A stretch of DNA of 64,000 nucleotides from Lachnospiraceae bacterium (GTDB lineage Bacteria > Bacillota > Clostridia > Lachnospirales > Lachnospiraceae), in NCBI GenBank assembly GCA_949383255.1, contig CASJPF010000002.1:1-64000 (forward strand). The letters are read 5' to 3'. Of the stretch, positions 5,718 through 48,150 are shown one piece after another; the first letter of the stretch is position 1; each line of letters starts with the position of its first letter. The position numbers were made by a program, and so were the translations under genes. The notes under the pieces were generated by a model. That model made no database searches. It was not told where the DNA came from and saw only the letters and a list, made by a program, of their open reading frames with translations.

Positions 5718-5814
5718 TATGCGTATGGGCATCTAAAAGGGAATATTGTCAGCAAGCTGACGGGCGCCCAGCGCGCGAGTAGGGAAATGTTTCTTTCCCT
5801 ACTCGATTACATGG
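5718..5814 (+). repeat. two-stem intergenic repeat, family A, copy 1
   Basis: It begins TATGCGTATGGGC exactly after the terminator U-run. The first stem is GGGCATC/GGGCGCCC-like with an inner GTCAG-CAAG-CTGAC hairpin. The second stem is CGAGTAGGGAAA paired with TTTCCCTACTCG. The same layout recurs at 28551, 39956, 40045 and 48059. Function unknown. Confidence 0.85.
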
Positions 5815-5836
5815 ACAGAGAATAGGAGGTACAATT

Positions 5837-6943
5837 ATGTTAAAGGAGAGATTACTTCAAGATATTTCGGAATTAAAGGTACACGGAAGAACGACGGCAT
5901 GTCGCGCGCCGTTAACCTTGTTTTGGACTGCAAGCGGATTTGAATGCAATGTGACAGGTTCGGAGTTTTGGGTCGAGTTGGAGGTTTGTTTTGATGTGTT
6001 TGAGCCGTGGTTTAGCTACACAATCAATGGTGATTGGGTGGGTAGACAAATGTTGCAAAAGGGGAGATATTGGGTACCATTGTTTCGCGGTATGAGTCCA
6101 GAGTGTGTTAAGAATGTACACTTTTTTAAAGATTTGCAGGCAATGAGCGATGATGGAAATTCCTACATTTATATTCATGCATTTCGCTATGATGGGGAGT
6201 TTTACGCAGTTAAAGACAAAGAACTAAAAATTGAGTTTATTGGTGACAGTATCACTTCCGGTGAGGGGCTTATTGGTGCGCGCAAAGAGTGCGATTGGAT
6301 ACCAATGTTTTTTTCTGCAATCAAAAGTTATACCTATCAGACCGCACAAATACTGGATGCAGAATACCGCATTTTTTCCCAGAGTGGATGGGGGGTACAC
6401 AATGCGTGGGATAATAATATACATGGAGCGATTCCAAAGTACTATAAAGAGATTTGTAGTTTGATGCCTGGAGCTAAAAATGAGACACTTGGAGGAAATC
6501 AGCCGCACGACTTTGCAAGTTGGCAGCCGGATTTTGTGGTGGTCAATCTGGGAACAAATGATGCTGCCTCTTTCGATCAGCCAGAGTGGGTTGACACACA
6601 GACTGGAAAATGCTACAAGATGCGCAGAACTGCAGAGGGGGATTATGATATAGAAGATATTAAAATATTTCAACAGGCAGTAAAAGGTTTTCTGGCATTA
6701 ATTAGGGAGTGCAACCCCAAAGCGCATATAATCTGGTGTTATGGAATGCTTGGGATTTCGCTGCAACTTTATCTGTGTGAGGCAGTCTCTGCGTATATGC
6801 ACGAGACAGGTGATCAGTTTGTTTCTTATTTGCAGCTTCCTGATACTACAAAAGAGAGCGTTGGTTCAAGAGAACATCCCGGGTTTTTATGCCATCAACA
6901 GGCTGCGGAAGTTTTGTCGAGGCATATAGCGCAGATGCGCTAA
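5837..6943 (+). CDS. carbohydrate acetyl esterase, CE2-like (jelly-roll plus SGNH domain)
   Basis: Second predicted mannan deacetylase, 368 aa, no signal peptide. Residues 1 to about 125 are a beta-rich N-terminal domain and the rest an SGNH hydrolase, the two-domain layout of family CE2. Seen: FIGDSITSGEG with nucleophile Ser138, NLGTND with Asn241, and REHPGF with His347. The acidic residue three positions before the His is not an Asp, which fits the Ser-His dyad reported for CE2 enzymes. It resembles RiCE2 of Roseburia, which removes 2-O-acetyl groups and complements the CE17 enzyme. AGGAGG precedes ATG 5837. It is 19 bases upstream of the binding-lipoprotein gene, so it probably shares a transcript with the sensory pair rather than with the GH130 genes. 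Confidence 0.87.
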   Translation: MLKERLLQDISELKVHGRTTACRAPLTLFWTASGFECNVTGSEFWVELEVCFDVFEPWFSYTINGDWVGRQMLQKGRYWVPLFRGMSPECVKNVHFFKDLQAMSDDGNSYIYIHAFRYDGEFYAVKDKELKIEFIGDSITSGEGLIGARKECDWIPMFFSAIKSYTYQTAQILDAEYRIFSQSGWGVHNAWDNNIHGAIPKYYKEICSLMPGAKNETLGGNQPHDFASWQPDFVVVNLGTNDAASFDQPEWVDTQTGKCYKMRRTAEGDYDIEDIKIFQQAVKGFLALIRECNPKAHIIWCYGMLGISLQLYLCEAVSAYMHETGDQFVSYLQLPDTTKESVGSREHPGFLCHQQAAEVLSRHIAQMR

Positions 6944-6962
6944 AAAAGAAGGAGAGAGTGGA

Positions 6963-7997
6963 ATGAAAAAAATATTAGTAGGGATATGCGGTATCTTGCT
7001 TTGCGGATTTCTTATGGCATGTGGGATTACTACAACACCAGAAATCATTATGCCAGATCAGCCTATGGTGTCCTCTGTGGATACAGAGCAGAAAATAGCC
7101 ACAGACAATAAGAACACAGATAGTACGCAGGCGCTAAGTGCTAAGAAACAGGACACACAACAAGAATATACTATCTATTTGATTACGATGGATTTGAGTG
7201 ACAATTATTGGAAGTCTATTGATAATGGCTGTACTGATGCTGCCGCGCAATTTGGAAATATTCGTTATAAATGGACAGGACCAGACACGCATGATGATGT
7301 GCAGCAGAGTGCTTGCATTGACGCGGCGGTTGCAGATGGCGCAAATGCGATTTTGCTTGCGGCAAACAGCGCGGAAGGAGTCAACAGTAGCATACAAAAG
7401 GCGGCGGATGCTGGATGCAAGATTGTTTATGTGGATAGTGCCGCAAGTTATGACTGTGTGACAGTGCTTTCTACTGATAATGTAGCGGCGGGCAGGACAG
7501 CAGGTGAAACGATGAAAAATGTTTTGCAGGAACAAGGGATTACAAGCGGAACAATTGGCATTATGGGCGTGACAGCGGACACTGCCTCCTGCGTAGCAAG
7601 GGAGCAAGGATTTCGGGAAGCTTTTGAGGGTACGACGTTCACACTTTCCAATACTGTTTATATGCAGGATAATACGGAAAATGTAAAAAATGCTGTTGCA
7701 GAGGGGATTTCTCAGGAATATATAGGCTTTTTTGGAACAAATGAGGGCACGACCGCTGCAATTGGCACAGCACTACGAGAGAAAAATACACAGAGCATTG
7801 TAATTGGATTTGACACGTCAGATACTGTGTTAGAAATGGTTTCTGAGGGGGTTATTTATGCCACTATGAAACAAAATCCCGAAGTTATGGGACGTGATGG
7901 ACTGAAAATTGCAGTGCAGGCACTAGAGGGTACATATACTGACACGAACACCAAAATAGATACAGGAGTTACGGTCATAACACAAGATGCAATGTAA
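6963..7997 (+). CDS. sugar-binding lipoprotein (Peripla_BP_4/RbsB-like), no cognate permease nearby
   Basis: Membrane-anchored sugar-binding protein, 344 aa. The signal peptide ends in a lipobox (FLMAC, Cys about residue 20), followed by a Thr/Gln-rich linker to about residue 60. A type I periplasmic-binding fold comes next: YTIYLITMDLSDNYWKSI, DGANAILLAANS, STDNVAAGRTAGETM and IVIGFDTSDTVLEMV. No ABC ATPase or ribose-type permease lies beside it. The next gene, 12 bases away, is a chemoreceptor. I infer that the lipoprotein presents sugar to that receptor or acts as a stand-alone sensor, placed in the mannan locus. It could instead serve a transporter encoded elsewhere. GGAGAG lies before ATG 6963. 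Confidence 0.88.
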   Translation: MKKILVGICGILLCGFLMACGITTTPEIIMPDQPMVSSVDTEQKIATDNKNTDSTQALSAKKQDTQQEYTIYLITMDLSDNYWKSIDNGCTDAAAQFGNIRYKWTGPDTHDDVQQSACIDAAVADGANAILLAANSAEGVNSSIQKAADAGCKIVYVDSAASYDCVTVLSTDNVAAGRTAGETMKNVLQEQGITSGTIGIMGVTADTASCVAREQGFREAFEGTTFTLSNTVYMQDNTENVKNAVAEGISQEYIGFFGTNEGTTAAIGTALREKNTQSIVIGFDTSDTVLEMVSEGVIYATMKQNPEVMGRDGLKIAVQALEGTYTDTNTKIDTGVTVITQDAM

Positions 7998-8009
7998 GGA
8001 GGGGGTGCT

Positions 8010-9713
8010 ATGCGATTTAAACAGAAAATGCTCACACTCTGTGTAGTACCACTCCTTTTGTTGACTGTTCTCTCGCTAGTAAGTGGTATGGCACAGTTTC
8101 GCTCTGGTATGTATGAGGAGACAGAAAGCAGGCTTAAATCTAGTGCACTTGCAGCAATGAACTTGTATGACAGTCAGGGATATGGAAACTATGCCATAAA
8201 AGAAGATGGAAATGTCTGGCGCGGTATGAATTTTAATATTTCCAAAGAGACATCTTTGGTCGATAGCTTAAAAGAACAAACAGAAGTTGACATTACGTTT
8301 TTTTTCCAAGATACTGCGGTGATGACTTCTATCTGCAATCAGAATGGTGCGCGCTGGATTGGCATGATGGCAGGTGAAAATATTAAAAAATATACATTGC
8401 ATCAGGGAGCACAGCTTTGGTATCGCAATATTGATATTGATGGCGAAATGTGTCATGCCTATATTATACCAATTGTTCAACCGGGTGATGGTTCTGTGAT
8501 TGGCGCACTGATGGCGTCGGTGTCAACACAGAATCTGGAAAGTAGAATCAAACGCTATATTGGTACAAGTGCGGCAGTATGCGTCGCAGTATTGATAGCG
8601 GTTGCCATAGTAATATTTTGTTATATTGGCAGCTTGACTAAGGTTATTCACAATGTACGGGAAGTTTTGTTAAAGGTTTCTGAGGGTGATTTGACAGATG
8701 GAAGACTTGCAGGAATACACAGACGAGATGAGTTCGGGGAACTGTCTTCGGGGACAGAAAAATTAAGAATCAAAATGGCACAGCTTATGGAAGAAATCCG
8801 CGTTGGGGTGGAGAAATTAACCCAGTCAGTGGAGCGGCTTAATGTGACGCTGGGCAAGAGTGTTGATTCTGCGAGAGAGATGAACAGAAGCGTCGAGGAA
8901 ATTAATGTGACAGCAAACAATCAAAAACAGGGAACAGAGAGCGCGGAGAGTGATGTTGAGACTACGCGGCAGGCAATTGACCAAATGTTAAAGGAAATAG
9001 CGGATATCAGCGTACTGTCAGAACACATGGCGCAGCTATCCACGGCGAGTAAAGACATTTTGGATGAACTATTCAATAGCAGCAGGGAATCACAGGATAC
9101 TGTGAAAAATATTAGCCAACAGGTGACAGACACAGATGATTCTGTTCAGCAGATTCGCAGCGTTACTGAGTATATTATCAATATTGCAGATGAGACAAAT
9201 TTGCTTGCCCTAAATGCAAGTATTGAGGCAGCGCGAGCAGGGGAAGCAGGCAGAGGATTTGCAGTGGTTGCTACACAGATTCAGAAACTTGCAGAAGAGT
9301 CCAATAATTCTGTATCAAGGATCGAGGATAATATCCAGATGTTAGTCGAGAAGATAACGGGAATTGTCAGCGTGATGGGAACAGTCGGTGAGGCACTACA
9401 AAAACAAGAACAGAATGTAAATCAAACGAAGGATATTTTTGATAAAATCCATCAGGATGTTATGGAGATTACCTATCGTGAATCCAATATGCAATATAGT
9501 GTTTCAGGTATGAATCAGGCTAAAGATAATATGTCTCATATTATCACAGAGCTGTCCGAATCAGCGCGAAATAATGCAAATCTCTCAGAAAATGCTGCGG
9601 ATATGACAACACAGATGATGCATGGGATGGAAGGACTCGAGGTATTAACTGTAGATTTGACAGAATTGGCAAATCGTCTGGATAGAAATCTGAAATCGTT
9701 TCGATTAGATTGA
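8010..9713 (+). CDS. methyl-accepting chemotaxis protein with Cache-type sensor
   Basis: Membrane chemoreceptor, 567 aa. The first hydrophobic helix spans residues 5-28, an extracytoplasmic Cache-like domain about 30-185 ([35 protein letters not shown]), and the second helix about 188-212. A HAMP domain ([14 protein letters not shown]) and a long coiled-coil signalling domain follow. The conserved hairpin tip is seen near residues 391-430 ([20 protein letters not shown], then GRGFAVVA). Coupled to the binding lipoprotein gene 12 bases upstream (GGAGGGGG ribosome site before ATG 8010), it should signal through CheA/CheW to the flagella encoded later in the window. The ligand, a mannan-derived sugar or the loaded lipoprotein, is inferred. 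Confidence 0.93.
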
Positions 9714-9782
9714 CTTTATGGAGCAGAACCTCTACAATGGATTTATAAGGTAGTATGAAAAAGAAATGGAGGAAAATTGTAT

Positions 9783-10721
9783 ATGAGCGAAATTTTATTT
9801 ATGGCACCCGTTTTTAAGCAGATGATTTGGGGCGGAAATAAGCTTGGCAGCAAATGGGGATATGCGATTCCAGGAGAGAATACCGGGGAATGTTGGGCAG
9901 TGAGTGCACATCCAAACGGGGATTGTACAATAAAGGAAGGTACTTTTGCCGGAAAGACATTGAGTCAGCTTTGGACAGAGGAACCACAACTTTTTGGTGA
10001 CACAACTGGAGATCGGTTCCCACTATTAATTAAAATTATTGATGCCAATGACGATTTGAGCATTCAAGTACATCCAGATGACATATATGCTGGAAAAAAT
10101 GAAAATGGCTCGTTTGGAAAAACAGAGTGCTGGTATATTCTTGATGCGCCGGAGGGAGCAACTCTTGTCATCGGCCATAATGCAAAGGATAAGGCGGAGC
10201 TTGAGGACATGATTCACAATGGCAGATGGGAGGAGTTTCTGCGAGAAGTTCCCGTTAAGAGAGGCGATTTCATTCAGATTGACCCAGGAACAGTTCATGC
10301 CATCAAAGGTGGTATTGAAATTTTGGAAACGCAGCAAAACTCTGATATCACATACCGCGTGTATGACTATGGACGCTTTCAAAATGGCAAGCCACGCGAG
10401 CTTCACATTGCAAAGAGCATTGATGTTATTACAGTTCCGGCAAAGTCCGTGGAGGAGAGTGTTATCAATATTTCCACAGATGCAAAAAATACAATGAATC
10501 AACTGATTTCGTGCAATTATTATCGCGTATGGAAGTTGGATGTAGACGGTAGTATAGAGGTTTCACAAGATTATCCATTTCTAATTATGAGTGTTGTGGA
10601 GGGAGAAGGACAGATTGATGGTCACTCTCTTAAAAAAGGTGATCATTTTATCTTGCCAAATGGTTTTGGCAAAGCGCAGCTACAGGGGAAGATGGAATTG
10701 ATTGTCTCTACAGTGGCGTAA
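9783..10721 (+). CDS. manA: mannose-6-phosphate isomerase, class I
   Basis: Cytoplasmic zinc enzyme interconverting mannose-6-phosphate and fructose-6-phosphate, 312 aa, the length of the short Firmicutes ManA type. Seen: MIWGGNKLG near the N-terminus, GECWAVSAHPNG, the metal-site motif QVHPDD, GKTECWYIL, and GDFIQIDPGTVHAIKGG, with a C-terminal cupin (GDHFILPNGFGKAQ). ATG 9783 is preferred over TTG 9777 because GGAGG is 10 bases away. Its place after the mannan genes explains how mannose-1-phosphate from the GH130 enzymes enters glycolysis, after a phosphomannomutase not encoded in this window. It also supplies mannose-6-phosphate for GDP-mannose synthesis in the reverse direction. Confidence 0.95.
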   Translation: MSEILFMAPVFKQMIWGGNKLGSKWGYAIPGENTGECWAVSAHPNGDCTIKEGTFAGKTLSQLWTEEPQLFGDTTGDRFPLLIKIIDANDDLSIQVHPDDIYAGKNENGSFGKTECWYILDAPEGATLVIGHNAKDKAELEDMIHNGRWEEFLREVPVKRGDFIQIDPGTVHAIKGGIEILETQQNSDITYRVYDYGRFQNGKPRELHIAKSIDVITVPAKSVEESVINISTDAKNTMNQLISCNYYRVWKLDVDGSIEVSQDYPFLIMSVVEGEGQIDGHSLKKGDHFILPNGFGKAQLQGKMELIVSTVA

Positions 10722-10736
10722 TTTTGATATAAGAAA

Positions 10737-10765
10737 TTGACAATTATCCCCATTAGCGATATACT
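10737..10765 (+). promoter_or_regulatory. sigma-A type promoter for the aldolase gene
   Basis: TTGACA (10737-10742), 17-base spacer, TATACT (10760-10765). It begins just after the manA stop and leaves a leader of about 60 bases before fba, so fba can be transcribed independently of the mannan genes. Confidence 0.75.
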
Positions 10766-10832
10766 GAATATACCGGCAAACAGCCGCTATTTTTACGGAA
10801 CATATAAATATTAATGATGGAGGTTAAGATTT

Positions 10833-16997: not shown

Positions 16998-17035
16998 GGG
17001 AGTACACATTGATAAAAAACGTGTACTCCCTTTTT
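16998..17035 (+). terminator. terminator after ftsH
   Basis: GGGAGTACAC (16998-17007), 13-base loop, GTGTACTCCC (17021-17030), TTTTT. Its U-run is followed directly by TATGCGTAGACTCG, the start of a repeat-like sequence. Confidence 0.9.
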
Positions 17036-17090
17036 ATGCGTAGACTCGTGCAGAGGAAATATGCCACTAACGACACGTGACCTATACAAA
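17031..17090 (+). repeat. terminator-adjacent repeat variant (family A-like)
   Basis: TATGCGTAGACTCGTGCAGA then GGAAATATGCCACT. The first part is shared with 28463-28510 (TATGCACAGACTGGTGCAGA), and GGAAATATGCCACT recurs at 62830-62843. Probably a diverged relative of family A. Confidence 0.5.
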
Positions 17091-19407: not shown

Positions 19408-19530
19408 GATAAAAAAGTCTTTGAACAGTTGGATTTTCGGATAATAGCCGGAGAGAAGGTAAGAATCTGTGGAGAAAATGGTAGAGGAAAGACAACTCTG
19501 ATACAAATTCTTGGTACTTTGCTCATGTGA
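19408..19530 (+). pseudogene. relic of an ABC ATPase (Walker A region only)
   Basis: A short frame reads DKKVFEQLDFRIIAGEKVRI followed by CGENGRGKTTLIQILGTLL and a stop. This is the Walker A region of an ABC ATPase, perhaps of the ABC-F type. The rest of the protein is absent in all frames, so the gene is non-functional. Confidence 0.65.
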
Positions 19531-19601
19531 GATAAAGAAGTAAAAGAAGTGTAAAAATTTTTGCCGTTCCCTATCCGGCTGACTGCCGGGCGGGTCGGGC
19601 T

Positions 19602-20205
19602 TTAGTCGGGCAGTTCTACCTTGCCGACAAAAGAGTAATAGATTTCGATTTCCTGTCTGCGGAGCTTCCCCCGGCGTTTCCCGTCAAGGGCTTCCGATTC
19701 GTGGATTACGATTTTCTCCACAAACTCCCGTAACAGGGTAGGGGTGAGTTCCTCAAAGCTGGTGTACTTGCGGACGACTTTCATAAACTTTTCGGCGTTT
19801 TGTGTGGCTTCCAACGTCCTTGAAAGCTCGCCCTGCAAAACGGCGGCACGCTCTTTCAGTTCCTTTTGCTCGGCTTCATAGTCTGCCGAAAGTTCCGTGA
19901 AACGCTCGTCCGATATGCGCCCGGTCACGCTGTCCTCATACAGCCGTTTGAAGATAGCGGAGAGTTCCGCAATCCGCTTTTCTGCCGCTTCCAGCTCTTT
20001 CTTCTTGGCGGCGTTCCGGTGTTTGCCCCCGTCCTCGTTCTACTCGATTAGGTGCTTCATAAACCGGGCTTCGTGCCTGGCGGCGTACTGTGTGATTTTC
20101 TGTAAATTCTCGGTCACGCCCTCGGTCAACAGGTCGGTGCGGATAAAGTGCGTCGTACAGTCTGCCGTGCGCTTCTTATAGCAGCCGCTGTCCTCCCACA
20201 TTATC
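19602..20205 (-). pseudogene. C-terminal fragment of a large serine recombinase (TnpX/DUF4368 type) with internal stop
   Basis: On the minus strand a continuous reading runs from about 20205 to the stop at 19602, interrupted by TAG after KHLIE near 20041. Residues before the stop (TADCTTHFIRTDLLTEGV) and after it (KKKELEAAEKRIAELSAIFK, SVTGRISDERFTELSADYE, TPTLLREFVEKIVIHES) match the coiled-coil and DUF4368 tail of transposon large serine recombinases. The catalytic N-terminal domain is absent. The stretch is visibly more GC-rich than its surroundings, a sign of transfer. It is a dead remnant of an integrated element. Confidence 0.85.
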
Positions 20206-20214
20206 AAATAAAAC

Positions 20215-20739
20215 TTATAAAACAATTTTATAAATATCCGCTATTTCATTTTCAAAAGAAAAGCTCCTTTCATACACACCACCATTTTTTTGTATAACCT
20301 TTATAGAAGCAGTATTGTCTTTTTCGACGGATATATGAAGTTCTTTTAAATCTGCTTCTTTAGCCACTTGAAGAAGCAAATTTAACATTTCTGTTGCATA
20401 TCCTTTTTTCCTTTCAGACGGACGTACACTATATCCGCAATTCCCTAAATCTTTCAAAAATTCATTTAATGTGTGTCTTAAATCAATAATTCCAATTATC
20501 CTGCTGTCGCTTTTTCTTAATGCAAAAAAGGTATCTGTGACTACCCAATTTTCATTTACTGTTTTGGGATTAGTATTCAGTGTTACAGAAGATAGCCATT
20601 CTTCGTAGCTTTCTATCTTGTCAAACAGCTCGCTTCCGTAAATAATCTTTTCTCCGTGTTGAAAATGTTCTTTACGATATGCAAGTCATTCTTCCTTTAG
20701 TTCTAAAGTAGGTCTTACCAAACAAATATTATTTTTCAT
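20215..20739 (-). pseudogene. GNAT N-acetyltransferase, disrupted by an in-frame TGA
   Basis: Reading from ATG 20739 (ribosome site AGGAGG) gives MKNNICLVRPTLELKEE, then TGA at 20688-20686, and then an unbroken frame to the stop at 20215. The downstream part has GNAT signatures: DSRIIGIIDLR, YSVRPSERKKGYATEMLNLL (acetyl-CoA loop) and DNTASIKVIQKNGG. A single base change (TGG to TGA) would explain the stop. The start overlaps the TetR gene by 11 bases, so the two formed an operon. A shorter product from a downstream start is possible but would lose the first strand of the fold. Confidence 0.8.
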
Positions 20740-21328
20740 TTTGAACCTCCTGTGGCAGTAAAAGCCTTTTTATTTCATGTATTATTTGACTGGGAATATC
20801 ATTATCCATTTTCATCAATTTACTATACATTCGCACTCCTTGATATGCAAATATAATTACATTAAAAACAGATTCCGGGTTTACACTGTTAAATTCTTTT
20901 GTGCCTATTCCATAGTTAATAAGTTCTACCCATGTTGATTTTGAAATTTCATACTGCATTTTTACAGAATTATCCTCTTTGGAGATAGCCGGATTACTAT
21001 AAAACTCACAAATTGCAAGGCTAAAAGAATTTTCATAGTCAATCATTTCACTTGCATATTTTGAAAGAAGTTCATCTAAAATAGTGGTCGCTGGAATGTG
21101 TTGTGTAATTTTAGTAAATACTTCGTTTCTCTGTTTATCAGAAAAAGCATTAACAATTTCTAAAAAAATCTGTTCGGTGCTTTCGTAATGGCGATACAGA
21201 CCGCCACGGCTAAGCCCTGTTAGTTCGCAAATATCTTTCATAGTAACCTCTTTAAACCCTTTTTGGGCAAAAAGTTGATATGCTTTTTCTCGAATATCCT
21301 GTTTTGTCTTTTCTCCTTTCAAGCTCAT
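20729..21328 (-). CDS. TetR-family transcriptional regulator
   Basis: A 199-aa DNA-binding repressor. Residues 8-55 hold the TetR helix-turn-helix (REKAYQLFAQKGFKEVTMKD, then LSRGGLYRHYES); the rest is the helical ligand/dimer domain. ATG 21328 is chosen because AGAGGTGA lies 5 bases before it; a longer frame to 21355 lacks this. It is co-directional and overlaps the broken acetyltransferase gene by 11 bases, so it probably controlled that gene and itself. Its promoter contains repeated GCGACA motifs that may be its operator. The ligand is unknown. The region looks horizontally acquired. Confidence 0.9.
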   Translation of the reverse strand: MSLKGEKTKQDIREKAYQLFAQKGFKEVTMKDICELTGLSRGGLYRHYESTEQIFLEIVNAFSDKQRNEVFTKITQHIPATTILDELLSKYASEMIDYENSFSLAICEFYSNPAISKEDNSVKMQYEISKSTWVELINYGIGTKEFNSVNPESVFNVIIFAYQGVRMYSKLMKMDNDIPSQIIHEIKRLLLPQEVQNEK

Positions 21329-21368
21329 GTTATCACCTCTTTCTTTTTGCAACATTCATGTCGCTTTT

Positions 21369-21397
21369 ATTATGCGTCATTAGTGTCGCTTTGTCAA
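21369..21397 (-). promoter_or_regulatory. promoter of the TetR gene with repeated AAGCGACA motif
   Basis: On the minus strand TTGACA (21397-21392), 17-base spacer, CATAAT (21374-21369). AAGCGACA occurs in the spacer and again just downstream of the -10 box, a possible autoregulatory operator. Confidence 0.7.
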
Positions 21398-21462
21398 GAA
21401 TAATTGGAAATAGAATTATAAAAATGAGTATGAATGAGTGGGATTCCGCCGTAGTCGGCATT

Positions 21463-21606
21463 GTGGGAATGTGTATAACTGACTATCTTATGGAATTGTG
21501 GGTAACTCTGTTTGCAGGACGTGGGAAAGCTGCACTTTAGCTTTTCCATGTGCTGTGAATAGAGTTATCCATGATTCCATAGCCTGTTATGCACATTTCC
21601 ATAATG
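21463..21606. repeat. large imperfect palindrome (about 60-base arms)
   Basis: The left arm (from GGGAATGTGTATAAC, through TATGGAATTGTGGGTAACTC, to GGGAAAGCT) and the right arm (AGCTTTTCCATGTGC, GAGTTATCCATGATTCCAT, GTTATGCACATTTCC) pair across a short centre near 21530. It fills part of the gene-free stretch 21329-22037. In the rest of that stretch I see only an unrecognised 37-codon frame near 21721-21834, and CTATTTGTG inverted motifs at 21832-21893. Confidence 0.75.
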
Positions 21607-21937
21607 CTTGTCTTTTGGTCTTTGGTTCGGAATAGTGTGGTGCTGGCAGTCTATCTGTTGTTTTTAGTTTCTGCTTCTTTACCGTACATGAGCATTTGCT
21701 GGAGAGTCATAATGGCAGATTGATGATATCTGAACAGGATTTTCGAGAGATTGACAAGAAAAGTTGGCGCAGTCTTATTTCCTATGTATTGATCTGTAAC
21801 AAGGAATTGTTAATAAATAATTTGTATAAATAACTATTTGTGCCATTATTTATACATTGTTTTTGCTTGTATAAATACCACAAATAGTATATCAGATTTT
21901 TGAGGCTATATCTAAAAATTTTAAAGTAATAAGAGGT

Positions 21938-28422: not shown

Positions 28423-28467
28423 AATTTCAGTGCGATACATAGAAAGTGTGTCGTACTGAAATTTTTT
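28423..28467 (+). terminator. terminator after the DUF1963 pair
   Basis: AATTTCAGTGCGATACA (28423-28439) pairs with TGTGTCGTACTGAAATT (28447-28463) with two G-T pairs, then TTTTT running straight into TATGCACAGACTGG. Confidence 0.9.
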
Positions 28468-28550
28468 ATGCACAGACTGGTGCAGAAGAAATAAACCGCT
28501 AAGGTGGCACACCGATCACACAAAGAGGGAAAGTAATTTTCCCTTCTCGA
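28463..28550 (+). repeat. terminator-adjacent repeat variant, followed by family A copy
   Basis: TATGCACAGACTGGTGCAGA resembles 17032-17051. It ends with GAGGGAAAGTAATTTTCCCTTC, a weak version of the family A second stem, and abuts family A copy 2 in tandem. Confidence 0.55.
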
Positions 28551-28642
28551 GTGCACATGGGCGTTCAAATGAAATATGTCAGCAAGGCGACGGACGCTCC
28601 TCGGGCGAGTAGAGAAGATAAGACTTTCCTGCTTGATTGCGC
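28551..28642 (+). repeat. two-stem intergenic repeat, family A, copy 2 (diverged)
   Basis: TGCACATGGGCGTTCAAATG, GTCAGCAAGGCGAC and GCGAGTAGAGAAG...CTTTCCTGCTTGATTG follow the family A layout with more substitutions. It lies 28 bases upstream of the solute-binding protein gene. Confidence 0.7.
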
Positions 28643-36994: not shown

Positions 36995-36995
36995 C

Positions 36996-38541: not shown

Positions 38542-39945
38542 ATGAAAAAGGATAATCTATGGCGTAAGTATACGAATGAGGAGAAAAAGAAAGTACAAGA
38601 AGTTTGTGATAGATACAAAGACTGCTTGAACCACGGCAAGACAGAGCGCGAATGTGTATCCCAAGCAGTAGAGATTGCACAGAAAAATGGTTATAAGGAG
38701 TTGTTTGAGACACTTGAAAAAGGGGAGCCTATAAAGGTGGGCGATAAGCTTTATGCTGTGCAGATGGATAAGAGTGTTGTACTTTTTCAGATTGGTAAGA
38801 AATTATTGTCTGATGGAATGAATATTCTTGGAGCACATATTGATTCCCCTAGAATTGATATAAAACAGAATCCGTTGTACGAGAAGGAAGGCTTTGCATA
38901 TTTTGATACACATTACTATGGCGGTATTAAAAAATATCAATGGACTGCAATTCCTTTGGCAATTCATGGTGTGATTGCAAAGAAAGATGGAACAATCATT
39001 TCTGTCAGTATCGGTGAAAAGGAGGATGAACCAGTGTTTGTTATCTCGGATTTATTGGTACATTTGTCTGGAAAACAGATGGCAGAGAAAGCATCAGAAG
39101 TAATCAAAGGAGAGAATCTTGACCTGTTAATTGGAAATTGTCCAATCGAACAAGATGAGACACTAGATCAGGAGGAGAAGGAGGCGCTCAAGGCAAATAT
39201 CTTAAAAATTCTTGCAGAATCTTATGATATTGAGGAGGAGGATTTGCTCTCAGCAGAATTAGAAATTGTTCCAGCAGGAAAAGCAAGAGATTTGGGACTT
39301 GACAGAAGCATGATTCTTGGCTATGGCCATGATGACAGGGTATGTGCATTTACATCTGTCTTTGCAATGATGAATCTGGCAGAAGAAGTTACAGAGAGGA
39401 CTTTGTGCTGTATTCTAGTGGACAAAGAGGAAATTGGAAATGCGGGTGCGACTGGCGCAGAGTCTCGTTTCTTTGAAAATACTGTGGCAGAACTTATCGC
39501 TGCTACAGAAAAGGATTCTCAACTTCTTGTGCGCCGTGCTCTGGCAAATTCTAAGATGCTGTCCTCAGATGTCAGTGCAGGATATGACCCATTGTATGCC
39601 GATGTATTTGAGAAAAATAACGCTGCATTTCTGGCGAGGGGACTTGCTTTCAATAAATATACAGGTTCGGGTGGAAAATCAGGATCGAGCGATGCCAATG
39701 CGAAGTATGTGGCAAGGATTCGGAAAATTATGGATGATGCAGATATTATGTATCAGTTTTGTGAATTGGGAAAAGTTGATGCAGGCGGTGGCGGAACGAT
39801 TGCGCGAGTCATGGCAAAATATGGTATGAATGTGATTGACAGCGGAGTGGCTGTAATCAATATGCATGCGCCATATGAAGTTGTTAGCAAGGCGGATGTG
39901 TATGAGGCTGTGCAAGGGTACACAGCATTTTTAAAAAGGGCTTAG
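38542..39945 (+). CDS. M18-family aminopeptidase
   Basis: Cytoplasmic zinc aminopeptidase, 467 aa, the usual M18 length. Seen: GAHIDSPRIDIKQNP (first metal His/Asp), FDTHYYGGIKKYQW, GYGHDDRVCAFTS (metal Asp), VDKEEIGNAGATGA (catalytic and metal Glu), and a C-terminal SGVAVINMHAPYEVVSKADV (metal His). It would trim acidic or other N-terminal residues from peptides. Starts at TTG 38530 and GTG 38533 lie in the leader hairpin region and cannot be excluded; ATG 38542 gives the normal N-terminus. Its stop codon lies in the loop of the terminator. Confidence 0.94.
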   Translation: MKKDNLWRKYTNEEKKKVQEVCDRYKDCLNHGKTERECVSQAVEIAQKNGYKELFETLEKGEPIKVGDKLYAVQMDKSVVLFQIGKKLLSDGMNILGAHIDSPRIDIKQNPLYEKEGFAYFDTHYYGGIKKYQWTAIPLAIHGVIAKKDGTIISVSIGEKEDEPVFVISDLLVHLSGKQMAEKASEVIKGENLDLLIGNCPIEQDETLDQEEKEALKANILKILAESYDIEEEDLLSAELEIVPAGKARDLGLDRSMILGYGHDDRVCAFTSVFAMMNLAEEVTERTLCCILVDKEEIGNAGATGAESRFFENTVAELIAATEKDSQLLVRRALANSKMLSSDVSAGYDPLYADVFEKNNAAFLARGLAFNKYTGSGGKSGSSDANAKYVARIRKIMDDADIMYQFCELGKVDAGGGGTIARVMAKYGMNVIDSGVAVINMHAPYEVVSKADVYEAVQGYTAFLKRA

Positions 39946-39956
39946 GCCCTTTTTTT
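39933..39956 (+). terminator. terminator overlapping the end of the M18 gene
   Basis: AAAAAGGGC, TTAG loop, GCCCTTTTT plus further T. The TAG stop codon is in the loop, so translation to the end may influence folding. TATGCACATGGGC of a family A repeat follows at once. Confidence 0.85.
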
Positions 39957-40045
39957 ATGCACATGGGCACCCAAAGGAATATTGTCAGCAAGCTGACGGG
40001 TGCCCAGCACACGAATATGGAAGATAAGACTTCTCTACTCGATTG
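39956..40045 (+). repeat. two-stem intergenic repeat, family A, copy 3
   Basis: TATGCACATGGGCACCCAAA, GTCAG-CAAG-CTGAC, GGGTGCCC, then a diverged second stem (GAATATGGAAG/CTTCTCTACTCG). First of two tandem copies. Confidence 0.9.
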
Positions 40046-40130
40046 CACATGGGCACCCAAAGGAATATTGTCAGCAAGCTGACGGGTGCTCAGCGCACGA
40101 GTAGGAAAGAAAACTTTCCTACTCGATTGT
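40045..40130 (+). repeat. two-stem intergenic repeat, family A, copy 4
   Basis: Tandem to copy 3. It starts GCACATGGGCACCCAAAGGA, has the same inner hairpin, and a better second stem CGAGTAGGAAAG/CTTTCCTACTCG. Confidence 0.9.
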
Positions 40131-40158
40131 GAAGATTTGCACCTATAATAAAAATATC

Positions 40159-40217
40159 TTGACATATATATCGTATAATGATATATTAAGAATATGATAT
40201 ATCATTATACGATATAT
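40159..40217 (+). promoter_or_regulatory. padR promoter with perfect 21-bp inverted-repeat operator
   Basis: TTGACA (40159-40164), 17-base spacer, TATATT (40182-40187). A perfect 21-base inverted repeat spans 40166-40186 and 40197-40217 with a 10-base centre; each arm is itself near-palindromic (ATATATC, 7 bases, GATATAT). It covers the -10 box and start site, as expected for autoregulation by the PadR protein encoded next. Confidence 0.85.
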
Positions 40218-40271
40218 TGGCAACTGATATAAAAGCGAAGTTGAGCTGTGGAAGGAGGCAGAACTGACTTT

Positions 40272-41377: not shown

Positions 41378-41529
41378 GTTACAGTTCAGTCTAGGACTTT
41401 GCACTGCGCTGCAAATTATGGCTTATATAAGCCGCGTAAGAAAACGTAGTGGCTTAAGATGCATCAAGCCATCGCGAAGCGGTTTTGCATGGCTTGATGC
41501 GTTACAGTTTGGCAAGGCTGAACTGTAAA
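41378..41529 (+). repeat. MITE-like structured repeat, family B, copy 2
   Basis: Inverted copy of 14251-14387: GTTACAGTTCAGTCTAGGAC at the left, CTGAACTGTAA at the right, and a strong central hairpin GCATCAAGCCAT/ATGGCTTGATGC. It fills the 316-base gap between the DUF2812 gene and the next gene; nothing else is seen there. Confidence 0.88.
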
Positions 41530-42057: not shown

Positions 42058-42061
42058 AAAG

Positions 42062-42086
42062 AGACAGGCAGTTTTGCCTGTCTTTT
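42062..42086 (+). terminator. terminator after the four-helix protein gene
   Basis: AGACAGGC, 6-base loop, GCCTGTCT, TTT. It is followed by TATGCGCATGGCCACC, a truncated family A start (42086-42109). Confidence 0.85.
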
Positions 42087-42149
42087 ATGCGCATGGCCAC
42101 CAAAAGGAAGATGGTTGAAGTATCTTTTTTATTTTGGAAAGGCACTTAA

Positions 42150-42899: not shown

Positions 42900-42967
42900 A
42901 CATTGTAAATGCAGACAGCCTATGGTATATATGACAAAGTACAATAGAAGCAAAGGAGCAGCAAGGA

Positions 42968-44509
42968 ATGTATAGCAGAGTGATAACAGGTGCCGTCAGT
43001 GGGATTGAGAGTGTGCTTGCAGCGGTCGAGGTTGACGCGTCGAAAGGCATGCCCGGTTTCGAGATGGTAGGACAGTTAAATAACGAGGTGCGGGAGGCAA
43101 GGGAGCGCGTCAGGGTAGCATTGAAAAATGTTTCTGTGGAAATTCCACCTATGCGAATTACAGTCAGCATATCCCCAGCAGAAATGCGCAAGGAAGGGGC
43201 TTCTTATGATTTGCCAATTGCAGTTGGCATTCTGGTATCGTTGGGATTGATACCAGAAGAGGGAATTAAGAACACTTTGATAATAGGAGAACTTGGTCTG
43301 GATGGGGAAGTGCGCCTCGTCAGAGGTGTGCTGCCTATTGTGCAAAGAGCAAAACAGGAAAAGATAATGCGATGCATTGTGCCGATAGAAAATGTAAAAG
43401 AAGGCGCTGTAATTGGCGGCATTGAAATTATTGGGGTAAGGACCCTTCGCAATACCATAGAGTATCTTAGAGAGGTTGAGGAGCGCAAGGCGCAGAGGAT
43501 AGTGCCCGCTGAACAGACGTTGATGGAAAGCCTAGAGGAGACAATTGCAGATGTTGATTTTGCAGAAGTGAACGGTCAGGAGTCCATAAAACGTGCAGTG
43601 GAGGTTGCAGCGGCTGGGTTCCACCACATATTGATGGTGGGGCCGCCAGGCTCTGGCAAGACTATGATTGCCAAACGAATACCAACGATTTTGCCAGACT
43701 TATCAATGGAGGAAAGTTTGGAAGTTTCCACGATATACAGTGTTGCAGGACAGTTGGATAACAAAAAGGCACTGATTACTAGGAGGCCGTTTTTAGATCC
43801 GCACCACACAATTTCAGAACAGGCACTTGCAGGCGGCGGGCGGATTCCCCGGCCCGGCGTCATCTCGCTCGCGCACAGAGGGGTTCTTTTTATGGACGAG
43901 CTGCCAGAGTTTCGGCGCAACACCATAGAGATTCTCCGACAACCTCTTGAGGACAAGCGCATTCACATTGCCAGAACATACGGCAGTTTTGTCTATCCAG
44001 CGGATTTTATGCTAGTGGCTGCGATGAATCCATGTCCTTGTGGTCATTTTCCAGATAGAAATCGATGCAGCTGTTCAGAAGCCGAAATTAAAAAGTATCT
44101 TTCTAGGATTTCAGGACCAATCTTAGACCGAATTGATGTGGTAACAGAAGCCCCAAGAGTAGAGATTCGACAGTTGTCCGCGGAGATGCATAATGAGAGC
44201 AGTGTTGATATCAAGCAGCGTGTCTTAGAGGCAAGAGCACGTCAAGAATACCGTTATAAAGACACAACCTATCAATTTAACGCAGAGCTGCGACCGGGTG
44301 ATATCAAAGAATATTGCAAGTTAGATACAAAAACGCAGGAAATGATGGAGGAAGTATTTACCATGATGAATTTATCTGCGCGTGCATATCATAAGATTAT
44401 AAAGGTAGCACGGACAATCGCAGATTTGGATAGGAAAGAAGACATTCTTGCGGAACATCTCAGCGAGGCGATTTGCTATAGAATGAATGATTATAAATAT
44501 TGGAATTAG
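42968..44509 (+). CDS. comM: YifB/ComM-family Mg-chelatase-like AAA ATPase
   Basis: A 513-aa ATPase. In competent species ComM is a helicase promoting branch migration during recombination. An N-terminal Lon-protease-like domain spans residues 1 to about 175 (GFEMVGQLNNEVREARERVR, TVSISPAEMRKEGASYDLPI), followed by the AAA domain with Walker A GPPGSGKT near residue 225, HRGVLFMDELPEFRR, and the Mg_chelatase_C region with four cysteines (NPCPCGHFPDRNRCSC). The next gene is dprA, 34 bases on. The pairing with DprA supports a DNA-processing role. Confidence 0.94.
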   Translation: MYSRVITGAVSGIESVLAAVEVDASKGMPGFEMVGQLNNEVREARERVRVALKNVSVEIPPMRITVSISPAEMRKEGASYDLPIAVGILVSLGLIPEEGIKNTLIIGELGLDGEVRLVRGVLPIVQRAKQEKIMRCIVPIENVKEGAVIGGIEIIGVRTLRNTIEYLREVEERKAQRIVPAEQTLMESLEETIADVDFAEVNGQESIKRAVEVAAAGFHHILMVGPPGSGKTMIAKRIPTILPDLSMEESLEVSTIYSVAGQLDNKKALITRRPFLDPHHTISEQALAGGGRIPRPGVISLAHRGVLFMDELPEFRRNTIEILRQPLEDKRIHIARTYGSFVYPADFMLVAAMNPCPCGHFPDRNRCSCSEAEIKKYLSRISGPILDRIDVVTEAPRVEIRQLSAEMHNESSVDIKQRVLEARARQEYRYKDTTYQFNAELRPGDIKEYCKLDTKTQEMMEEVFTMMNLSARAYHKIIKVARTIADLDRKEDILAEHLSEAICYRMNDYKYWN

Positions 44510-44543
44510 CGTTTTCGATAAAATATTATTAAACAGGAGAATT

Positions 44544-45668
44544 ATGAGAGAGGATAAAGAAGGTATTGTACAACAAAAACAATATGCCTGTTGGCTTGAC
44601 ACAATTTACTGGATTGCGAGCGACACAAAGTATAAGCTTCTTAGGGCGGCGGGCAGTATTCAAAATGTCTATAATATGGAAGAAAGGCAGCTTGCAGCCA
44701 TTATGGGACGAAAAGGGTGTGAGCGTTTCTGCCAGCATAGAAAGAGATATACGCCGCAGAAAGTATGGAATTATATAAAAGAGTTGGGGATTCGTTATAC
44801 ATACTGTGAGGATTCGGATTTTCCCAGAAAGCTTGTTTGCATTCCAGACCCGCCTTTTGGCATCTTTTATAAGGGACAGCTTCCGGCAAAGAATGTTGCG
44901 GCAGTAGCTATAATTGGAGCAAGGAAGTGTAGCGAGTATGGTAAGCATATGGCTGAAACCTTTGCTTTGGCATTTGCATCGCAAGGTATTGATATTATAA
45001 GCGGAATGGCACAAGGGATAGATGGCATAAGCCAAAAAGCTGCGTTGGAAGCAGGGGGCAATTCCTATGCTGTGCTTGGATGCGGCGTTGACATTGTATA
45101 TCCCAAATCCAATGAAAAACTTTATTATCAGCTTTTAGAACATGGGGGAGTACTGTCGGAGTATCCACCACAGATGGAGCCAAGACCAATGCTGTTTCCG
45201 CCAAGAAATCGAATAATTAGTGCATTGTCGGATGTAGTGTTAGTAGTGGAGGCGCGGGAAAAGAGTGGCACGTTAATTACGGTGGATATGGCGCTAGAAC
45301 AAGGGAAAGAAGTGTACACGGTTCCGGGAAGATGTACGGACAGCCTTAGTATGGGGTGCAATCGACTGTTGCGTCAGGGAGCGGTGACTGCGACTGTGCC
45401 AGAGGATATTATTGAGGATATGCGCTGGGGAGCACTACCACAAAAAATTGATAAACAGACCTCAAAGGTTTCTTGGGAAAAACTCTCCACAATAGCACAG
45501 GAAGTCTATGCAATTATCGGTGTTTTGCCAGTTACACAGGAAAGAATTGTCTCTTTGCTGCGGGAAAAAAAGAAAACATTTACAGTACCACAGATTTGTC
45601 AGGGACTTGTCGAGCTGGAATTAAAGGGTTTTATTATCTTTGCTAACAGACAGTATAAAAGAACTTAG
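44544..45668 (+). CDS. dprA: DNA-processing protein DprA
   Basis: Loads RecA on incoming single-stranded DNA in natural transformation, 374 aa, normal length. Residues 1-70 are an N-terminal SAM-like helical domain, then the Rossmann core: VAAVAIIGARKCSEYGKHMA, GIDIISGMAQGIDGISQKAA, YAVLGCGVDIVYPKSN, FPPRNRIISALSDVVLVVEA, REKSGTLITVDMALEQGKEV. The C-terminal winged-helix domain runs from about residue 310. ATG 44544 has AGGAGA upstream. With ComM it indicates at least partial competence machinery. Confidence 0.96.
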   Translation: MREDKEGIVQQKQYACWLDTIYWIASDTKYKLLRAAGSIQNVYNMEERQLAAIMGRKGCERFCQHRKRYTPQKVWNYIKELGIRYTYCEDSDFPRKLVCIPDPPFGIFYKGQLPAKNVAAVAIIGARKCSEYGKHMAETFALAFASQGIDIISGMAQGIDGISQKAALEAGGNSYAVLGCGVDIVYPKSNEKLYYQLLEHGGVLSEYPPQMEPRPMLFPPRNRIISALSDVVLVVEAREKSGTLITVDMALEQGKEVYTVPGRCTDSLSMGCNRLLRQGAVTATVPEDIIEDMRWGALPQKIDKQTSKVSWEKLSTIAQEVYAIIGVLPVTQERIVSLLREKKKTFTVPQICQGLVELELKGFIIFANRQYKRT

Positions 45669-45752
45669 AATGTGTTTGAAAGATTCCTTGCGTGATATTT
45701 GCGCCAAATTGTGATGCATATCTGAATAGAAAGCATTTTTCAAACACGCTCT
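45668..45752. repeat. palindromic element with GTGTTTGAAA arms
   Basis: GTGTTTGAAA (45672-45681) and TTTCAAACAC (45738-45747) are perfect inverted ends around a 56-base interior. No T-run follows, so it is probably a small mobile-type or structural repeat after dprA rather than a plain terminator. Confidence 0.6.
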
Positions 45753-45851
45753 AAAATTTGATAGATTTTGGTATATAATTTTCACTACTTTTGTAAAGGC
45801 GTGAAAAGGAGCGACAACATAAAATAATTGATAGATTTTACAAAATATTAC

Positions 45852-45880
45852 TTGCCACAAGTTTAAAATTAGGTTATAGT
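45852..45880 (+). promoter_or_regulatory. promoter for topA
   Basis: TTGCCA (45852-45857), 17-base spacer, TATAGT (45875-45880), about 35 bases before the ribosome site. Confidence 0.7.
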
Positions 45881-45921
45881 GGTGAACGTAAGTCAAGAAT
45901 AAGAAATTAAGAGGTAACAGT

Positions 45922-48009
45922 ATGGCAAAATATTTGGTGATAGTTGAGTCACCCGCGAAAGTAAAGACAATCAAAAAATTTCTGGGTGCAAATTATGAGG
46001 TATTGGCGAGCAACGGTCATGTGCGCGATATGCCCAAAAGCCAACTGGGATTTGATGCGGAAAATGATTACGAACCGAAATATATAACCATTCGTGGAAA
46101 GGGAGACATTCTGGCAAAGCTTCGCAAGGAAGTAAAAAAGGCAGATAAAATCTATCTTGCAACGGACCCTGACCGCGAGGGAGAGGCAATCTCATGGCAT
46201 TTGTATATTGCTCTGAAATTAGAGGGCAAAAAGGTATATCGCATTACATTTAACGAAATCACAAAAAATGCGGTAAAGGAATCTTTCAAGAATCCAAGAG
46301 AGATTGATATGAGTTTGGTTGATGCGCAGCAAGCGCGCCGTATGCTTGACCGAATGGTAGGGTATCGGATTTCACCGCTTCTGTGGGCAAAGATTAAGAG
46401 AGGATTGAGCGCGGGAAGAGTACAGTCTGTAGCGTTGCGCATTATCTGCGACAGGGAAGATGAAATCAATGCTTTTATTCCAGAAGAATACTGGACATTG
46501 GATGCAACATTGAAAATAAAAGGGGAGAAAAAACCTCTTATAGCAAAGTATCATGGCACTGGAGAGAAAAAGACAGAGATTTCTTCTAAGGAAGAGATGG
46601 ACAAAATTTTAAGAGAACTAGAAGGGGCAAAGTTTGCCGTCACAGATATAAAAAAGGGAGAGCGTGTTAAGAAAGCGCCGCTGCCCTTCACAACATCAAC
46701 ATTGCAGCAGGAGGCAAGCAAGACGTTAAATTTCTCCACACAGAAGACAATGCGTCTGGCACAACAGCTCTATGAAGGTGTGGAACTAAAAGGGCAGGGA
46801 ACTGTTGGTATTATTACGTATCTGCGAACAGATTCGACCAGAATTTCTGATGAGGCTGCCGCTTCTTCCAAAGAGTACATTGCTAAAAATTATGGAGATG
46901 CGTATACAGCGGAGGCTGTGGCAGAAAAGAAAAAAGAGCAGAAAATACAAGATGCGCATGAGGCGATACGCCCGACAGATATCAATAACACTCCAGCAGA
47001 TTTAAAGGAGTCTTTGAGTCGGGACCAGTTTCGCTTGTATCAACTTATCTGGAAACGGTTTACAGCAAGCCGCATGACACCCGCGAAGTTTGAGACAACT
47101 TCCATAAAAATTGACGCGGAGGGACATCACTTTACAGTGTCCGCGTCTAAACTAGATTTTGACGGATTTATGAGTGTCTACAAAGAGGCAGATGAAGAGA
47201 AAGCAGTATCCAACACGCTTGTGAAAGATATCACAAAAGAGGCACAACTTTCCTTAGAGGCGTTGGATCCCAAACAGCATTTTACGCAGCCGCCTCCACA
47301 TTATACGGAGGCATCACTTGTAAGAGCACTCGAGGAGCTTGGAATTGGGCGGCCTAGTACTTATGCGCCGACAATCACAACAATTATGGCAAGACGCTAC
47401 GTAGTAAAAGAGGACAAAAACCTCTATGTTTCCGAGTTGGGCGAAGTAGTCAACAATATGATGAAAGATGCATTTCCGTCAATAGTGGATGTGAATTTCA
47501 CGGCGAATCTTGAAGCTTTGCTCGACAAGGTGGAAGATGGTGCAATTGGCTGGAAGACAGTGGTAGGAAATTTTTATCCGGATTTGGATGAGGCGGTGAA
47601 GAATGCGGAGAAAGAACTTGATGAGGTAGAAATTGCTGACGAAGTATCCGATGAATTGTGCGATGTATGTGGTAGAAATATGGTTATTAAATATGGACCA
47701 CACGGTAAATTTCTTGCTTGCCCGGGATTTCCAGAGTGCAAAAACACAAAACCTTATTTTGAGAAGATTGGTGTATCTTGTCCAAAGTGCGGCAAGGAAG
47801 TTGTTATCAGAAAGACGAAAAAAGGCAGAAGATATTATGGTTGTGAGGCGATACCAGAATGTGACTTTATGGTATGGCAAAAGCCTTCCAAAGAAAAGTG
47901 TGACCGCTGTGGCGGTATTATGCTAATCAAGGGAAATAAGCTTGTGTGTGTGAATGAGCAGTGCGGTTTTGTGAAAAAGATAGAGGATATTGATACAGTG
48001 ACATCATAA
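45922..48009 (+). CDS. topA: DNA topoisomerase I
   Basis: Type IA topoisomerase relaxing negative supercoils, 695 aa. Seen: TOPRIM domain (YLVIVESPAKVKTIKKFLG, TDPDREGEAISWHL), LSAGRVQSVALRIICDRE, and the active-site segment GIITYLRTDSTRISDEA with Tyr300. The C-terminal tail has zinc fingers: CDVCG...CPGFPEC, CPKCG...CEAIPEC and CDRCG...CVNEQC, twelve cysteines in three sets. ATG 45922 follows GAGGTAAC. It has its own promoter and terminator, and lies in the conserved dprA-topA-codY neighbourhood. Confidence 0.97.
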   Translation: MAKYLVIVESPAKVKTIKKFLGANYEVLASNGHVRDMPKSQLGFDAENDYEPKYITIRGKGDILAKLRKEVKKADKIYLATDPDREGEAISWHLYIALKLEGKKVYRITFNEITKNAVKESFKNPREIDMSLVDAQQARRMLDRMVGYRISPLLWAKIKRGLSAGRVQSVALRIICDREDEINAFIPEEYWTLDATLKIKGEKKPLIAKYHGTGEKKTEISSKEEMDKILRELEGAKFAVTDIKKGERVKKAPLPFTTSTLQQEASKTLNFSTQKTMRLAQQLYEGVELKGQGTVGIITYLRTDSTRISDEAAASSKEYIAKNYGDAYTAEAVAEKKKEQKIQDAHEAIRPTDINNTPADLKESLSRDQFRLYQLIWKRFTASRMTPAKFETTSIKIDAEGHHFTVSASKLDFDGFMSVYKEADEEKAVSNTLVKDITKEAQLSLEALDPKQHFTQPPPHYTEASLVRALEELGIGRPSTYAPTITTIMARRYVVKEDKNLYVSELGEVVNNMMKDAFPSIVDVNFTANLEALLDKVEDGAIGWKTVVGNFYPDLDEAVKNAEKELDEVEIADEVSDELCDVCGRNMVIKYGPHGKFLACPGFPECKNTKPYFEKIGVSCPKCGKEVVIRKTKKGRRYYGCEAIPECDFMVWQKPSKEKCDRCGGIMLIKGNKLVCVNEQCGFVKKIEDIDTVTS

Positions 48010-48059
48010 AAAAGAGCTGTGAAATAATGAGATAATCATTTTTTTCACAGCTCTTTTTT
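48008..48059 (+). terminator. terminator after topA
   Basis: AAAAAAGAGCTGTGAAA (48008-48024) pairs with TTTCACAGCTCTTTTTT (48043-48059). It runs directly into TATGCACATGGGC of the next repeat. Confidence 0.93.
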
Positions 48060-48150
48060 ATGCACATGGGCACCCAAAGGAATATTGTCAGCGAAGCTGA
48101 CGGGTGCCCAGTGTGCGAGTAGGGAAAGGAATCTTTCCCTACTCGATTGT
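48059..48150 (+). repeat. two-stem intergenic repeat, family A, copy 5
   Basis: TATGCACATGGGCACCCAAA, inner GTCAGC-GAA-GCTGAC, GGGTGCCC, then CGAGTAGGGAAAG/CTTTCCCTACTCG. A further partial unit (ACATACGCACCCAAAAG) follows at 48151-48167. The rest of the gap to codY holds only its promoter. Confidence 0.92.

Follow-up and report, generated by a model that had tools for sequence, protein, structure and literature searches.

A structured intergenic repeat of Lachnospiraceae is probably a miniature mobile element addressed by hairpins

Repeat units in the window and across the family

The window is the whole 64,000-nucleotide stretch of contig CASJPF010000002.1 (C2 in our numbering) of a Lachnospiraceae draft genome, G000 (4.38 Mb in 169 contigs, 86% complete, contamination 6.85), and our subject is a family of structured intergenic repeats on its forward strand. 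A sequence-only reading of this DNA had named five copies, at 5718, 28551, 39956, 40045 and 48059, and all of them are present, with an E-value of 1.1e-12 or better in a covariance model (R1) built from 31 units of G000 (alignment A1). The first unit, of the A type, spans 5718–5809 in model coordinates (E 8.2e-16; its body is 5721–5808 by the rule taken from the filled and empty sites below) and follows a terminator hairpin and T-run at 5685–5717, placed by sequence and hairpin analysis; the other terminators were read from the sequence. What had been called a variant at 28463 turned out to be a sixth unit, of the B type (28467–28553, E 8.4e-6), which lies behind a terminator hairpin and T-run at 28423–28466 and in tandem with an A′ unit at 28550–28639 (E 1.1e-12). 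The latter has a distinct outer stem (GGGCGTTC/GGACGCTC) and is preceded by another unit, not by a terminator. Two A-type units, at 39956–40045 (E 3.7e-17) and 40042–40129 (E 6.5e-19), form a second array behind the terminator hairpin and T-run at 39933–39955, and a last A-type unit at 48059–48149 (E 5.8e-19) follows the one at 48009–48058; the sequence and a BLAST extension place what is probably left of a following unit (GTACATACGCACCCAAA) at 48149–48165. Two further copies of the earlier reading are visible by eye and absent from the R1 listing at E<=0.1, for which 150 of 1518 first-look candidates were scored: a degenerate B-type left half (TATGCGTAGACTCGTGCAGAGGAAATATGCCAC...) at 17031–17079, behind a terminator hairpin and T-run at 16998–17030, and a truncated remnant of the left end at 42086–42118 (direct-repeat family D4, 74% identity), behind a terminator at 42061–42085. 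No Rfam family matched within the window at its curated threshold (0 matches).

Units are 86–92 nt long (roughly 87), hold no open reading frame (ORF) and have the same body plan in every type: GCRCA, a left structure, GCGC, a hairpin (P4) and a final ATT. The left structure consists of a nine-pair stem (P2), an 11-nt one-sided bulge (consensus AGAGGAAATAT, core GGAA), a five-pair hairpin (P3) and the 3′ strand of P2, which has no bulge. A further pairing, P1 (GCRC/GYGC), is weak, its third pair being broken in 19 of the 31 units. By eye we distinguished at least six outer stems in G000 (GGGCACCC, GGGCGTCC, GACCCGTGC, GACCTGCGC, CGCCGATGC and CGGACGCGG), and P4, which reads CGAGTAGGGAAG/CTTCCCTACTCG in this genome, is also altered in more distant ones (GAATGTGC/GCACATTC; AGACTCGCGAGCGAGTCT). 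GCRCA and CGATT, the two ends, do not form an inverted repeat. Since the base after CGATT is mixed (G28 A20 T14 C5 in the 67 last units with a readable end), the element ends at T. At the other end the TAT that had been counted in the previously described motif belongs to the flank, because the filled/empty comparisons set the left boundary at TAT|GCACATGGG.

Six of six single G000 copies fold well below their dinucleotide shuffles, by 3.7 to 10.3 standard deviations as DNA and by 4.4 to 9.7 as RNA. Across 88 copies taken from other genomes, pairing holds in 93.7% of 2522 cells, with both-side changes in 29 of 30 pairs and a covariation score of 0.527 against 0.178 in shuffles (reached by 0 of 500), while slid structures pair at 27–49%; this alignment was fitted to the structure and is biased in its favour. 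An unfitted MAFFT alignment of the 31 G000 units gave 90.1% pairing and a score of 0.389 against 0.218 (0 of 500 shuffles), with both-side changes in 17 of 30 pairs, a number that 64 of 500 shuffles reach. Conservation is higher in the bulge than in P2 (1.32 and 0.81 bits per column) and alike overall in unpaired and paired columns (1.07 and 1.08). The covariation reported earlier is therefore real; it separates subfamilies and species and does not speak of selection on each copy.

A genome-wide search with the model, which the sequence-only reading had proposed, gave 144 matches in G000 at E<=0.1, our widest listing, and 110 at E<=1e-5, the threshold for arrays; counts per genome rest on the scored candidates. 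The 110 copies form 99 arrays (89 single, nine double and one triple), and the repeat itself is thus confirmed. At E<=0.01, matches were found in 25 of 40 genomes searched, including 23 of 24 of the same genus, some of which have just one to three weak ones; G016 was the sole negative of this genus at that threshold. Among genomes of other families two of 16 had matches, strong in G030 and weak in G029. In a family-wide sample (250 genomes from 249 genera, stricter filters, 17 candidates scored per genome), 28 genomes from 27 genera were positive at E<=1e-5 and 222 genomes had no match. One positive genome of another genus, G057, holds ten copies of similar score (60.7–70.7 bits), of which one was read; a second, G226, likewise outside the genus, has at least 17. 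A pattern scan of named genomes, with 80 of its 90 stretches listed, gave no family or genus other than Lachnospiraceae and genera therein; strain COE1 and Parablautia intestinalis are among the carriers. Scanning viral contigs returned one copy, at positions 600–690 of a phage-like contig (L180); the ORF just downstream is presumably terminase-like, and one protein encoded on the contig presumably contains an HUH-like motif (GGIHVHILINR). No description of the repeat was found in the literature searched, which covered few subscription papers.

Position behind hairpins and filled and empty sites

The sequence-only reading had called for a count of copies adjoining terminators, and their placement is indeed not random: a stem-loop scoring >=18 ends <=14 nt from the start of 75 of the 99 G000 arrays, compared with 3–9% in the controls (flank windows, 3/96 and 4/99; TTTTAT(G/A) sites elsewhere in the window, 4/45; shuffles, 9/297). 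In most arrays the left end lies immediately 3′ of a stem-loop, after ...NNT|, and 79 of the 99 arrays open with the letters TATG. Copies of other genomes behave alike, with an upstream hairpin in 71 of 87 against 1/87 in controls; these are the copies, out of 88, with enough flank, and they include second units of arrays, which are preceded by P4. Among the copies counted the left end always faces the target hairpin, a strict orientation. The hairpins upstream of the arrays are mostly gene terminators, as the proposed targeting of terminators would have it. Nevertheless, one unit lies inside an ORF, so the address appears to be a hairpin rather than a terminator as such. The bases before the junction vary (TAT, TGT, ATT) and form no fixed target tetranucleotide. 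We also asked whether the bulge (GAAATA) might pair in parallel with the target (TTTTAT) and rejected the idea, as it misfits tandem and non-terminator targets. In some distant genomes (L246, L247, L250, L254 and L084) the 5′ context is CGCTCCGCGAG|GAT and not a T-run, and in L252 and L255 it is CCCTCCGGGG, likewise in place of a T-run; such contexts may represent an additional module or a hairpin target reduced to its minimum.

To compare occupied and unoccupied sites we used G042, a near-identical strain (99.5–99.8% identity to G000 over C2). Of the 99 arrays, the 55 with both flanks in the G042 DNA used here were examined; two of them, both on contig C41, aligned to a homologous locus with about 10% divergence, which leaves 53 orthologous arrays. 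All 53 are occupied in both strains, and the number of units differs in two: at 39956 of the window, where G000 has two units and G042 one (86 bp), and at 48523 of contig C13, where G042 has one more (87 bp).

Two pairs of sites differ by the presence of exactly one unit. The first is at position 26645 of C41, where G000 is filled (TATCTGT|GTACAGACC...TTGATT|GCAGAC) and the G042 homolog is empty (TATCTGT|GCAGAC, that is GTATCTGT|GCAGAC); the hairpin CTTGATTGATAAAATCAAG ends 13 nt before this junction. In the second, a unit at L354:18113 of G042 (the ortholog of position 8771 of contig C26 in G000) is absent from G022, whose flanks are 91–95% identical: the empty site reads GGGGTGGTGTATTAT|ATAAAG and the filled one GTGTATTAT|GCACAC...CGATT|ATAAAG. 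Here the empty site lies inside an ORF of 237 amino acids that runs on, whereas at the filled site the reading frame is lost after 32 residues. Since the unbroken G022 gene contains the hairpin CCACCCCT...AGGGGTGG, this hairpin is no terminator, and the target existed before the unit arrived if the intact gene represents the older form. Neither pair has a clear target duplication (the ambiguity is 1 and 2 bases), and each empty site allows one junction placement that also fits the tandem (ATT|GCAC) and terminator (TAT|GCAC) junctions. We infer that in both pairs the unoccupied form came first. At L354:16970–17070, G042 also carries a repeat resembling a miniature inverted-repeat transposable element (MITE), with inverted ends AGTACAGCGTTTT...AAAACGCTGTACT and similar stretches in G021, G022 and G049.

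Loci of the window also differ between species. In the sister species G021 the terminator of the 39956 array (TTAGGCCCTTTTTTTAT) is retained and is followed by a unit whose outer stem differs (GGGGTGCGT/ACGCACCCC); by eye, the G022 copy at this locus sits behind a different terminator, and no unit was seen in G015, G007 or a short G049 stretch. At the 48059 locus, inspection of 20 relatives found the unit in G042, only a P4-like hairpin in G021 and none in the other 18.

A probable mobile element and the alternatives

On this evidence the repeat is probably a non-autonomous miniature mobile element of about 86–90 nt that is addressed by a hairpin, and not a site-specific RNA. Among the roles offered by the sequence-only reading, mobility draws support from the two filled/empty pairs, the differences in unit number and the swapped unit types behind one terminator. 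Recombination would involve a folded single strand: target choice, the constant orientation and the structure-preserving changes between subfamilies are readily accounted for only by a hairpin specific to one strand. A circular intermediate with the junction P4-ATT|GCRCA might exchange with an exposed hairpin-NNT site. As the element's own 3′ end, P4-ATT, resembles such a target, an old copy could itself serve as one, which would explain why units stack head to tail. The enzyme would be supplied in trans, and as a first guess, by analogy, it may act on single-stranded DNA in the manner of IS200/IS605 or TnpAREP proteins.

A different reading is that each copy is a functional RNA at a transcript end (a stabiliser, a processing site or a control of read-through), kept by selection at its site; its strong conserved structure and strict orientation behind terminators at about 100 sites would suit it. 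Upkeep at the RNA level predicts that G.U is much commoner than A.C among imperfect pairs. In 101 G000 copies the G.T to A.C counts were 33:70 in P1, 77:64 in P2, 35:16 in P3 and 112:77 in P4, and in 88 copies from other genomes they were 5:42, 24:20, 14:7 and 49:41. Summed over P2–P4, the 224 G.T against 157 A.C in G000 lean towards RNA, but the covariance model is itself biased towards G.U, and this modest excess counts for little in either direction. With the two C41 rows excluded, G000 and G042 differ at 48 of 5314 sites within copies and at 150 of 41931 in flanks. Half of the within-copy differences (24 of 48) are concentrated in four arrays, where they resemble tracts of gene conversion; a general hypervariability of the copies, hinted at by a few loci, was dismissed with the full set, in which most differ at 0–1 sites and changes are clustered. 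Copies thus change no slower than their flanks and, with the pair counts, no purifying selection is seen in place, contrary to the RNA-level selection suggested earlier; the covariation between subfamilies would then reflect the needs of movement. Copies lie past the terminator U-tract, which makes 3′-end stabilisation or processing awkward, one splits an ORF, and the 48059 site lacks the unit in most relatives. We regard an RNA function as the least probable of the readings considered. Hardly more probable, in our judgement, is an old inert repeat whose copies are shuffled merely by gene conversion and tandem recombination. The occupation of all 53 orthologous arrays in both strains speaks for it, and clusters of change inside the element at 5718, 48059, C1:75236 and C1:167983 resemble conversion; against it stand the precise filled/empty pairs, the switch of unit type that a sister species shows after a shared terminator and the ten G057 copies, whose like scores (the letters of one copy were read) may mean a recent spread there.

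If the repeat does move, the question is by what. It is possible, though unlikely, that the repeat belongs with IS200/IS605 or REP/TnpAREP as a REPIN- or PATE-like element (PATE-like for non-autonomous IS200/IS605 derivatives) and owes its movement to an HUH Y1 transposase, which would cleave single-stranded DNA beside subterminal hairpins. It would account for hairpins near both ends, a bulged stem, high copy number, the lack of a clear target duplication and a left end that always points to the target hairpin. Yet the junctions have no fixed tetranucleotide, there is no GTAG guide at a hairpin foot in the alignment (GTAG occurs within the P4 stem only), and Y1 genes do not track the repeats: Y1_Tnp matched in 20 of 38 genus genomes, which are drafts, and the single truncated IS200-like gene of G000 was rejected as a partner, its ends being unlike the element by eye and copy number showing no correlation. 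Insertion through RNA by a reverse transcriptase (RT) that chooses hairpins, as in group IIC introns, is improbable. The kind of target is the same, but 86–90 nt is too short for a ribozyme core, no Rfam family matched, and no series of 5′-truncated copies was seen, though the model search favours whole units. RTs matched in 24 of the 38 genomes and not in the other 14, which include the many-copy G015 (46 copies) and G017 (48 copies) as well as G040. The two RTs of G000 were rejected too, as there is no correlation with copy number; one, cut by a contig end, we take to be a group II intron RT, and the other (L033, on contig C20) is presumably diversity-generating-retroelement-like, in a prophage-like region. 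G015 has neither a Y1 nor an RT match despite its 46 copies; this genome is 86% complete, and incomplete genomes limit the test of absence and weaken it as an argument against Y1, and a past, plasmid-borne or phage-borne enzyme would escape it. More tentatively, and on balance doubtful, the repeat could represent a separate class of mobile element, in which a folded single strand is joined to any exposed hairpin-NNT end, of which its own 3′ end is an instance, by an enzyme outside the known Y1, RT and DDE groups, and which diversified across Lachnospiraceae by compensated stem changes.

Several observations weigh against a mobile, hairpin-addressed element. Most copies are common to both strains, so its activity rests on few events. 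An empty site could instead be the precise loss of a unit, C41 is possibly a contaminant or a paralog (which leaves the filled/empty comparison itself unchanged), and tandem units that recombine with each other could produce the changes in unit number. By score, 24 of the 99 arrays have a weak upstream hairpin or none, among which we saw by eye some long-loop hairpins, two arrays after a decayed unit and some with nothing. P4 and outside targets are also not quite alike in geometry: in tandem arrays the P4 stem ends 3 nt from the junction, whereas the distance is about 8 nt at one of the empty sites and about 13 nt at the other. Searches of the 38 genus genomes for Y1 and RT found no partner enzyme; Y1_Tnp had no match in 18 of them, including G015, G013, G006 and G005 with their 35–55 copies, and around 30 Y1 loci R1 found one copy (L415). 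Halves of the element parted by a gene were sought by eye in L031 alone, with no wider search.

The window holds other repeats besides. Between the 39956 array and the next gene, at 40167–40216, lies an operator-like AT-rich inverted repeat (TATATCGTATAATGATATAT...), retained in G021 with compensating changes; the Rfam matches in 39900–40220 are all far below threshold, and the best of them, at about 40146–40220, fall on it and not on a repeat unit; these matches were set aside. A second repeat family, a large imperfect palindrome of about 140–150 bp (CAGTTCAG...CTGAACTG), occurs at 41378–41526 and at L354:12658–12796, in mutually alignable copies. It had matches in ten of ten genus genomes in one search and, among the matches listed in a second, in four of six (G003, G007, G015 and G021), and is a candidate for another mobile repeat. 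At 19524–21695 lies a 2.17-kb insert that G042 lacks. One end reads CATGTGAGATAAAGAAG and the other, in inverted form, ATGCTCATGTACGGTAAAGAAG, and about 6 bases are directly repeated at the ends; the insert is insertion-sequence-like and splits a gene that is presumably ABC-type. Tandem repeats of 51 bases lie inside a coding region at 59593–60000, and at 61800–62500 differences between G000 and G042 are clustered in a coding region otherwise nearly identical.

Comparison with known systems

If the preferred reading holds, the repeat is an abundant mobile element that reads DNA shape over sequence and lands mostly behind terminators, where it would be least harmful. Its hundreds of covarying hairpins would be a natural library for finding the partner enzyme, and it would warn that an intergenic motif can covary strongly without having an RNA function at each site.

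Group IIC introns are far larger ribozymes with their own reverse transcriptase. According to a review they insert at intrinsic terminators and attC sites (PMC4424553). Common to both is insertion just 3′ of terminator hairpins; the introns have a ribozyme core with domain V and an intron RT, whereas the repeat, at about 87 nt, has no ribozyme match and no gene. Integron attC cassettes are bulged folded sites in head-to-tail arrays, two features that the repeat shares, but it has no cassette gene and is dispersed over many contigs. A MITE of the DDE type has terminal inverted repeats and a target duplication; the repeat lacks inverted ends and has no duplication beyond 1–2 ambiguous bases. The MRSC-65-2 motif, covarying, suggested to be selfish and present in dozens of copies per genome, is described as a single long stem with UYCCGG repeats (PMC11109978), as opposed to the two hairpins of the repeat, and on that description we ruled out identity.

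For IS200/IS605 and TnpAREP, published accounts describe subterminal hairpins, single-stranded DNA and guide tetranucleotides (PMC6006769, PMC8266576). IS200/IS605 derivatives resemble the repeat in a hairpin near each end, the lack of a clear target duplication and a single orientation; the repeat differs in having no fixed target tetranucleotide, in using an upstream target hairpin and in not being tracked by Y1. With REP, BIME and REPIN sequences (PMC8266576, PMC6006769) it shares small bulged intergenic hairpins, many copies and a possible mobilisation in trans by TnpAREP, and it differs by the lack of a GTAG guide at the foot, by direct tandem arrays and by precise filled/empty pairs. We keep it apart from IIC introns, IS200/IS605 and TnpAREP because one defining feature of each was tested and is absent here; the repeat groups with the small non-autonomous hairpin repeats, which are a known kind.

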